Shown in pieces: positions 1 through 3,895 of a stretch of 64,000 nt of DNA (positions are counted from its first letter, which is position 1; every line of letters starts with the position of its first letter). This stretch comes from Owenia fusiformis (Eukaryota; Annelida; Polychaeta; Sabellida; Oweniidae): assembly GCA_903813345.2 (NCBI GenBank), contig CAIIXF020000011.1, positions 873,001 to 937,000 on the forward strand, written 5' to 3'. The notes below the pieces were generated by a model that saw only the letters and a program-made list of their open reading frames with translations, was not told where the DNA came from and did no database searches. Position numbers and translations under genes: made by a program.

Positions 1-252
1 ATGGATGGATATCAATACCTTCACTCAATCGCTTCGCTCACTTGTGAAGATATAGATATCCCCTCATGGATATAAATGATATTTTTTCAAAACCATAGGA
101 TATTCCTATATTATTTTCTATGAATAACAAATTGATTTTTTATTTTTGTACAATTAATCTTTGACAGTAGTGTTACATAATCTTGTCAAACTTTTATCTT
201 GAAACATAAAGTGATTATTTGAATAAAAATATTCTGCCAATAAAGATATTAC

Positions 253-414
253 CTTTAACGGCGAATCACATAAAAATTGAGTGAAGCCTTTATGATCGCA
301 ATCTCCTTCTTCATCTTTATGTATAATCATCTGATACTTTTTGTAAACTTCAAATGGAACGTCAAAACTCTCTTTGAATGCTTCACTTCCTGGATTGGAC
401 CGAAGGAGCCTAAT
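253..414 (-). pseudogene. Orphan copy 1 of ATE1 exon 6b
   Basis: 162 nt, open, with the same acceptor (TTCTTAG) and donor (GTAATATC) arrangement as the exon in the gene and only scattered differences. It lies about 41 kb beyond the last ATE1 exon on the same strand, so it cannot be reached by ordinary cis-splicing of the gene seen here. No other ATE1 exons accompany it apart from its 6a partner at 446-607. Confidence 0.85.
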
Positions 415-445
415 CTAAGAAAAAGAACAAAAAGAGCATATATAC

Positions 446-607
446 CTCAAGTGGCGAGTCTACCAGAAATCGTGTAAATTGTTTCTTAGAAGGCTTTTCA
501 GGCGGGTCCTTGTGGATCACCATTTGGTATTTTTTGTACACTAGATAGGATTCTTGGAATGTTTCTTCAAATTCATTGATTCTTGGATTTGATCGGACCA
601 GTTTTAT
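446..607 (-). pseudogene. Orphan copy 1 of ATE1 exon 6a
   Basis: 162 nt, open, differing from the gene's exon 6a by about two bases over the whole exon. Splice sites (CTAG / GTATATATG) are intact. It sits 31 bp from its 6b partner, preserving the cassette geometry. Confidence 0.87.
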
Positions 608-2415
608 CTAGAAAATACATAAATTGTTGATTGTTTATATCTGACAAGTCTGAATCGTTTCACTTGATTTGAACCTCATCCCCATAGCAACATAAACATC
701 GCAGTCTCATCTTCCTAGCAACATATACATTGCAGTCTCATTCCCCATAGTAGTAACATATACATGTACATAGCAGTCTAATTTCCATATTATTATATAC
801 ATAGCAGTCTTATTACCATAACAACATATACATAACAGTATCACTACCATAGCAACATATACATAGCACTCACATCGCCATAGCAACATAAATATACAAA
901 TACAAGTAGCAGTCTAATCACCAAAGAACATTTACAGAGCAGCCTCAATACCATAGCAACAAATATGTTGCAATCTCACTCATCCCCACAGCAACTATAG
1001 CAGTTTCGTCACCATAGTAACATATAGCAGTACCAGTACCCCTTAGCAACATAAATATTTAGGTCTCATCCAACATAGGAACATATACACAGCAGTCTCA
1101 TCCCCATGGCAACATTAACATGGAAGTCTCATCCCAATAGCAACCTTTACACTGCAGTCTAATCCTCATCTAGCAAAATATATAAACAGAGCAGTTTCAT
1201 CTCCATAGCAATAAACATAAATGTCTCATCCCCATAGTAACATATGAAGCAAAGGCTATTGATAGTGAAAGTGACAGATTGTCATGATGATTGTCAAAAA
1301 TTATGTTTATTTATGCTAACCTTTTACCTAAAACAAAAACAACTAAAACAAGTACAAGGGCCTTTAGATCAGACATTACCAATATATTAAATATCTCAAA
1401 GGAGAAGTGAAGATATCGATATCCACTCATGGATATAAATGATATTTTTTCAAAACCAAAGGATATTCTAATTTATCCCATGGTTGCAAGGATATAGATC
1501 GAATATCACATGAAGATATATTTGATATGTGGATCAAGATATCATATTTTAGCAAAAAATTCACAAACCATCGAATATCACTTTTTAACTATCGAATATC
1601 ACGTCTTAGAAAGTGATATTCGATGGTTTGAAAAGTGATATTCGATGGTTTGAAAAGTGATATTCGATGGTTTCGAATTTTTTCAAAAAAAATTCTTTTT
1701 ACATTTTTTAATTATTTTCAAAAATATTTTTAAAAAATTCAAAATTTCAAAAAAAAATTCAACATTTTTTCACATTTTTTTTCATTTTTTCAAAGTTGTT
1801 CTCAAATTATATTTTTCAACTTTTTTCGCTGATGATGATTTTCCATGGGATAAACGGACAATCCTATGGCTTTTCAAAAATATCAATTATATCCACTCAT
1901 GGATACAAATATCTTCACTCATTCGCTGCGCTCACTCATGAAGATATCAATATCCACTCATGGATATAAATGATATTTTTTCAAAACCATAGGATATTCC
2001 TATAATACTCTGGAAAACCAATATACGGAGGGTATTGGGATGATATACTTAGCTTGATGATTTCCAACGGAATTGAACTATTTGAAATTAAAATTTAATT
2101 ATATTATACATTTAGTACGCTACTAATAAGTGTAGGATCCTATCCTATGATTTTTTCAGAATATCATTATAATCTACTTGGTGATATTGATATATCAGTA
2201 TACAAGTATGCACTCGTTCGCTTCACTCGTAGATAAAAATGATTTAGTCAAAAAATCATAGGATATCCTATAATTATTTTCTATGAATATAAAATTGTTT
2301 TTTAATTTTTGTACAATTAATTAATAACAGTAGTGTTACATAATATTGTACAACTTTTATCCTGAAACATAAGGTGATTATTTGAATAAAAATATTCTGC
2401 AAATAAAGATATTAC

Positions 2416-2577
2416 CTTTAATAGCGAATCACATAAAAATTGAGTGAAGCCTTTACGATCGCAATCTCCTTCTTCATCTTTATGTATAATCATCTGATAC
2501 TTTTTGTAAACTTCAAATGAAACGTCAAAACTCTCTTTGAATGCTTCACTTCTTGGATTTGACCGAATGAGCCTAAT
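2416..2577 (-). pseudogene. Orphan copy 2 of ATE1 exon 6b
   Basis: 162 nt, open, with acceptor TTCTTAG and donor GTAATATC. Reads like the gene's 6b but with YKKY instead of YTKY. Part of a second, tandem orphan copy of the cassette. Confidence 0.86.
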
Positions 2578-2610
2578 CTAAGAAAAAAAGAACAAAAAGA
2601 GCAAATATAC

Positions 2611-2772
2611 CTCAAGTGGCGAGTCTACCAGAAATCGTGTAAATTGTTTCTTAGAAGGCTTTTCAGGCGGGTCCTTGTGGATCACCATTTGGTATTTTTT
2701 GTACACTAGATAGGATTCTTGGAATGTTTCTTCAAATTCATTGCTTCTTGGATTTGATCGGACCAATTTTAT
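2611..2772 (-). pseudogene. Orphan copy 2 of ATE1 exon 6a
   Basis: 162 nt, open; begins [20 protein letters not shown] and ends FLVDSPLE before a GTATATTTG donor. It is 33 bp from the copy-2 6b exon. Nearly identical in residues to the gene's exon 6a. Confidence 0.88.
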
Positions 2773-3075
2773 CTAGAAAAACATAAATTGTTGATTGTTT
2801 ATATCTGACAAGTCTGAATCGTTTCACTGGATTTGAACCTAATCCCCATAGCAACATAAACATCGCAGTCTCATCTTCCTAGCAACATATACATTGCAGT
2901 CTCATTCCCCATAGTAACATATACATGTATTTAGCAGTCTAATTTCTATATTATTATATACATAGCAGTCTTATTACCATAACAACATATACATAACAGT
3001 ATCACTACCATAGCAACATATACATAGCACTCACATCGCCATAGCAACATAAATATACAAATACAAGTAGCAGTC

Positions 3076-3895
3076 TACTGGACGTATGAAAAACTGATGT
3101 ACAGTAAAGCTATGTATGAATGTGAAAATGTATGAAAAGGGGATGAATTGTGAAACAAAAACAAAAACAACTAAAACAAGTACAAGGGCCTTTAGATCAG
3201 ACATTACCAATATATTAAATATCTCAAAGGAGTAGGCCCAACATGGCAAGAGATTTTCGGACAGCTGTATTTTTGAACACAGGTATTTCCCGACCATACA
3301 ATGGACATTTTATATTAAAACAATATCTTAACTTCAACAAAAGTGCATGAAAAAAATAAAAAACTCATATTAATAATGAGATTAGCCATGGATTAGTAAC
3401 CAACTCTCAATAATATTGACCTTATTACTGAAAAAGATGACCATGATTTTTCATATTTTTTGCAGTATAAGATTACACTGTAATGTAGCATTCACTTCAT
3501 ATAAGGGCATATGGATTGAAAAGTTGATATGAAAGTAACATAGGAATGAGGATTATCCAATGGGAAATTCCATGTTATGGAGTTCGCCCTGTCCATCTTT
3601 GAAAGTTCTGATTGCCCATCTGCCATCTTTGAGAAAATCGATGCATTAATGAATGAACATTTGTAAATGTATGTATGTGTGGACACCTAATGAATGCATG
3701 ACAGTTTGCTAGGTCATGGGATACCAATGTCATCCATTATTTATGTGAGTGGATTTAATTCAATACCAGAGTATCCAATGAGGCATGAATATAATAACAT
3801 TGACCTATGACTTATACTGGACGTATGAAAAACTGATGTACAGTAAAGCTATGTATGAATGTGAAAATGTATGAAAAGGGGATGAATTGTGAAAC
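3076..3895. repeat. 80-bp direct repeats flanking 660 bp
   Basis: The sequence TACTGGACGTATGAAAAACT and the next 60 bp at 3076-3156 recur with no difference seen at 3815-3895. The segment between holds no recognised gene. The repeats may be the scar of an unequal exchange or the ends of a small mobile sequence. Confidence 0.7.

Follow-up and report, generated by a model that had tools for sequence, protein, structure and literature searches.

Positions 1-3231 of the window form the 5′ edge of a duplicated 3′ half of ATE1 (exons 6a/6b to 10), hereafter called copy 2; it lies on the same strand as the parental cassette, about 54 kb downstream of it. The window is the whole stretch of Owenia fusiformis DNA that was analyzed, 64,000 nucleotides long (C11:873001-937000, C11 being a 37-Mb contig of a 498-Mb genome in 525 contigs). 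Copy 2 is probably a partial segmental duplicate in decay, apparently carried along when a neighboring NHL-repeat gene multiplied, and what is seen here has the look of commonplace genome duplication, not of a novel splicing device.

The parental gene lies on the reverse strand of the window, and its joined exon peptides find human ATE1-2 as the closest PDB chain (E 1e-131). Both exon 6a and exon 6b match the same stretch of ATE1, 6a being the one aligned to human ATE1-2. The spacer between them, at 32 nt, is below ordinary intron size and thus too short to serve as one, which would alone make 6a and 6b mutually exclusive.

41552..63060, reverse strand: ATE1 gene, coding exons found (exon map without exon 4), the last coding exon ending near 41552
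56278..56439, reverse strand: parental ATE1 exon 6a, 162 nt, open, AG acceptor and GT donor
56084..56245, reverse strand: parental ATE1 exon 6b, 162 nt, open, AG/GT, 32-nt spacer after 6a

Repeats of several kinds accompany the gene. For instance, decayed exon 3-like sequences lie in the intron preceding exon 3 (58803-58898 and 59085-59237, reverse strand), the latter match extending over exon 2 as well and holding three stops. Tandem units spaced at 173-176 nt repeat the 3′ part of exon 9, with two extra units in the gene (44740-45220, reverse strand) and three in copy 2 (L002 4177-4797). Minisatellite arrays with periods of about 16, 19, 144 and 119/27 nt are found in or beside the introns at 42089-43600, 45311-47359, 35952-36968 and 48278-49226.

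A genome search in which all three candidates were scored placed the 6a/6b cassette DNA at three genomic places—the gene and two further sites termed o2 and o1—a recurrence far beyond chance. The initial annotation had described these two additional pairs as nearly identical to the cassette of the gene, with exon length, reading frame, splice sites and spacer preserved, and the description holds in each respect.

2611..2772, reverse strand: first exon 6a of copy 2 (o2), 162 nt, open, AG/GT intact, 2/162 differences from the gene
2416..2577, reverse strand: first exon 6b of copy 2 (o2), 33-nt spacer, 162 nt, open, AG/GT intact, 6/162 differences from the gene
446..607, reverse strand: second exon 6a of copy 2 (o1), 162 nt, open, AG/GT intact, 2/162 differences from the gene
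253..414, reverse strand: second exon 6b of copy 2 (o1), 31-nt spacer, 162 nt, open, AG/GT intact, 7/162 differences from the gene
1409..2007, no strand assigned: dispersed repeat between the o2 and o1 cassettes, on the intron 6 side of o2, with dozens of genomic matches (best 40 of 2379 candidates)

All six exons across the three cassettes thus retain AG and GT. The additional cassettes do lie downstream of the last ATE1 exon, on the same strand and some 38 kb away, and their 6b exons do read YKKY where the gene has YTKY. What did not stand is their isolation: they had the appearance of orphans because the left end of the window falls within intron 6 of copy 2. Two copies of exon 7 just left of the window came to light in an ATE_C family search, and exons 8, 9 and 10 were located with the joined exon peptides, such that the exons continue at C11:872947-848556 in the same strand and order.

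C11:872947-872765, reverse strand: copy 2 exon 7, open, splice sites intact
C11:870420-870238, reverse strand: second copy of copy 2 exon 7 (7′), open, splice sites intact
C11:855006-854911, reverse strand: copy 2 exon 8, open, splice sites intact
C11:851797-851696, reverse strand: copy 2 exon 9, with three partial repeats, open, splice sites intact
C11:848726-848556, reverse strand: copy 2 exon 10, open, splice sites and normal stop codon intact

Stretches of introns 5 and 6 in copy 2 align with the gene, and those around exons 8-10 are colinear with it. Since introns are kept, copy 2 is not a retrocopy; duplication of an isolated cassette is likewise ruled out, by the exons 7-10 found outside the window.

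On its 5′ side, copy 2 breaks off within the last nucleotides of exon 5, against a transposon.

3221..3232, reverse strand: junction, comprising the last 3-6 nt of exon 5 and its dead donor, abutting the transposon tip; recurs near 1396-1407
3226..4338, no strand assigned: dispersed transposon with terminal inverted repeats (TIR), the 5′ limit of copy 2 (best 40 of 78 candidates)

The exon 5 remnant is given as a range because three A's can be assigned to either side of the junction. As the initial annotation had it, homology in both cassettes stops at the same point, no more than 6 nt from the end of exon 5, and the exon 5 donor is dead, its G being A in both o1 and o2. The terminal inverted repeats measure 306-339 nt in the three relatives of the transposon examined, and the 88-aa open reading frame of one relative gave no Pfam match. 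The first bases of the transposon tip are also present at the o1 junction, which places the break first and the tandem copying afterwards. This agrees with the earlier proposal of one duplication followed by a tandem copy: o1 and o2 have in common the exon 5 junction, the dead donor and a number of differences from the gene, and the tandem event is the later one, with 5/305 differences between o1 and o2 in intron 5 against 62/708 between the gene and o1. Farther along the window, reverse-strand frames at 10607-14881 match reverse transcriptase and phage-integrase-type (tyrosine recombinase) entries in Pfam; the element looks like a DIRS-type retroelement.

A search covering exons 1, 2, 3 and 5 (36/36 candidates scored) found none of them outside the gene's own stretch. 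Against window 3226-41000, the upstream half of the gene gave no more than three short matches (56-88 nt), and against sequence pieces L001-L010 none. A functional mutually exclusive cluster would share a transcript with an upstream donor and a start; copy 2 keeps the 6a/6b geometry, but its exon 5 amounts to 3-6 nt and no donor upstream of its cassettes came to light. With exons 1, 2, 3 and 5 and an exon 5 donor all unfound, copy 2, judged from its sequence, is most likely drifting and gives rise to no ATE1 protein.

Patterns of divergence within copy 2 point the same way. Its exons differ no less than the adjacent noncoding DNA, with no sign of present constraint. Between o1 and o2, the exons differ at 9/324 sites and intron 5 at 5/305 (Fisher P 0.42; the intron 6 comparison, 29/190, was excluded from the test because that stretch is partly made of different transposon remnants), while between the two exon 7 blocks, 7A and 7B, the exon differs at 3/183 sites and the rest of the 2.5-kb block at 18/2341 (P 0.19). 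Such near-neutral drift fits the initial suggestion of recent neutral duplicates. Among changes that could be given a direction, 13 nonsynonymous and 6 synonymous fall on copy 2 (P 0.34 against neutrality; P 0.044 if four ambiguous synonymous changes are all assigned to copy 2), and 4 nonsynonymous and 6 synonymous fall on the gene (P 0.021). Taken alone, o2 has one nonsynonymous and three synonymous changes (P 0.052), and o1 has five nonsynonymous and zero synonymous; the direction of the change at 6a codon 22 is taken from the human sequence.

Compared with the gene, the exons of copy 2 show 26 or 27 differences over 879 sites. Freedom from constraint all along would predict about 39 on the copy 2 side of this comparison, and the mild deficit may reflect earlier constraint or gene conversion. 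Pooled noncoding sequence differs at 176/2717 sites, about 6.5%, a figure from which the intron 6 flank of the gene and 7A (14/73) was excluded as being partly made of different transposon remnants. Roughly 1.4 kb of copy 2 exons hold zero stops, frameshifts or lost splice sites; depending on the assumption, the chance of this under neutrality is 0.012-0.12, and the intactness would reflect youth more than function. Pairwise omega between the gene and copy 2 is 0.21 or 0.36. Low omega as proof of function is ruled out, because at least six synonymous changes fall on the gene branch and because the visibly broken 626k tail described below has a similar ratio, 0.23.

At two positions, 6b codon 25 and exon 7 codon 24, the gene has T and copy 2 has K, and at exon 10 codons 23 and 36 the gene has V and N, residues found in none of the seven other copies compared. 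Human ATE1-2 also has K at exon 7 codon 24. At 6b codon 25 it has V in the alignment, so that there it is just 6a (YKKY) and the copies that back K as the older state. From these comparisons, it is the gene that seems to have changed.

Copy 2 is one of several such tails. C11 holds nine ATE1 3′ ends, namely the gene and eight partial tails: copy 2, 783.7k, 709.2k and 626.8-631.8k, along with 1043.8-1047.4k, 2072.9k, 2132.3k and 2230.2k in reverse orientation. Damage is visible in the exons found in 5/8 of these tails—stops at 783k, 2132k and 2230k, loss of the exon 10 start at 709k, and truncation of exon 7 at 626k—and in those found in copy 2 and in the 1043-1047k and 2072k tails none is visible. 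The 5′ half is absent from the seven tails besides copy 2 too. At 8/9 of the ATE1 3′ ends, the gene included, a convergent copy of an NHL-repeat gene lies 1.9-3.5 kb from exon 10; near the 1047k tail, no NHL copy was among the matches listed (150 of 204 candidates scored).

38042..39700, forward strand: NHL-repeat gene copy convergent with ATE1, the presumed duplication core (PF01436, 30.5 bits, cut-off 20)

NHL relatives with no ATE1 tail match also exist, for example at C11:328k, 342k, 1738.8k and 1750.5k. The same convergent neighbor at seven tails and at the gene indicates that the ATE1 tail probably hitch-hiked on the expansion of the NHL family, with the NHL gene probably the core that spread and the ATE1 tail carried along, a direction we infer. 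The family itself is large, with at least 142 genomic matches at E up to 1e-5 (query window 38042-38650; best 150 of 204 candidates), many of them lying in open frames some 615-660 aa long. In the window, a dispersed element some 785 bp long (38651-39436) interrupts the NHL frame, and a sibling copy is contiguous across the site at C11:781306-781308.

The probable course of events would begin with multiplication of the NHL-repeat gene along the chromosome by segmental duplication. The duplicated blocks would have taken variable lengths of the ATE1 3′ end, the longest piece having been taken, or retained, by copy 2. Copy 2 now has no 5′ half: it begins with the final 3-6 nt of exon 5, next to the tip of a transposon that may have had a part in the loss. 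The exon 5 stub and the 6a/6b cassette would then have been copied in tandem to give o1 and o2, and, going by their divergence, the 2.5-kb block with exon 7 would have been duplicated later still.

Other histories can be weighed against the same evidence. Copy 2 might once have been a complete or longer working paralogue of ATE1 under selection, which recently lost its 5′ portion through the transposon or a deletion and is now decaying. The mild deficit of exon changes, the lack of any disabling change and the position of the cut at a transposon tip would suit such a past, which is nonetheless unlikely: exons 1, 2, 3 and 5 are untraced outside the gene, upstream-half matches in window 3226-41000 do not exceed 88 nt, the 5′ half is missing from seven other tails as well, and a pairwise omega like that of copy 2 is found in the broken 626k tail. 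Very improbable is that the block at 55.6-57.2 kb was misassembled or duplicated as a haplotype, a one-off artifact of a kind raised in the initial annotation. Exon identity is high and nearby tandem repeats hinder assembly, but copy 2 has tandem duplications and a transposon junction of its own, its noncoding DNA has diverged from the gene to the extent given above, and all eight partial tails, which differ in extent and orientation, sit on the same 37-Mb contig.

Very improbable, too, is the use of copy 2 as an alternative 3′ module, whereby exon 5 of the gene would splice some 54 kb onward, or in trans, to copy 2. Four further choices of exon 6 followed by exons 7-10 would thus become available, giving isoforms with K for T at two positions. 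The exons of copy 2 are all open, have intact splice sites and stop, and lie downstream on the same strand, which suits such use, yet since the local duplications they have changed no less than neighboring noncoding DNA, and o1 in particular has accumulated nonsynonymous changes exclusively. There is equally little likelihood that ATE1 is a split tandem gene, in which very long-range or trans-splicing could connect one 5′ half to a second 3′ half downstream, with its four further exclusive choices of exon 6; were this true, segmental duplication would have built an alternative catalytic module past the apparent end of the gene.

Duplicated (unprocessed) partial pseudogenes are known as passengers of segmental duplications that center on a core gene in expansion. 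Like these, the ATE1 tails keep introns, vary in 3′ length, and share the same neighbor in the same convergent geometry at 8/9 loci. They differ in nothing of kind, although here the passenger carries an alternative-exon cassette and underwent two small tandem duplications afterwards. The alternative exons of human ATE1 measure 129 nt and have a longer spacer, compared with 162 nt and 31-33 nt here. Published work reports tandem-duplicated ATE1 exons in vertebrates, arthropods and nematodes (PMC9741552) and regulation of human ATE1 exons 7a/7b by RNA structure (PMC8052449, PMC10790352), and the passages of PMC9741552 and PMC8052449 considered here mention no cassette copies outside the ATE1 gene. 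Literature searches on arginyltransferase with exon duplication, and on partial gene duplication with mutually exclusive exons, found nothing; both were too narrow to call the ATE1 tails unreported.

What had been read as an isolated splice cassette thus arose from the edge of a window, and the correction has practical consequences. Pipelines may annotate the ATE1 tails as additional ATE1 genes, and with three near-identical copies of the cassette, 6a/6b usage counted from short reads would be confounded. More broadly, the locus offers a clear case in which the tail of a single-copy enzyme gene has apparently hitch-hiked on an expanding neighbor.
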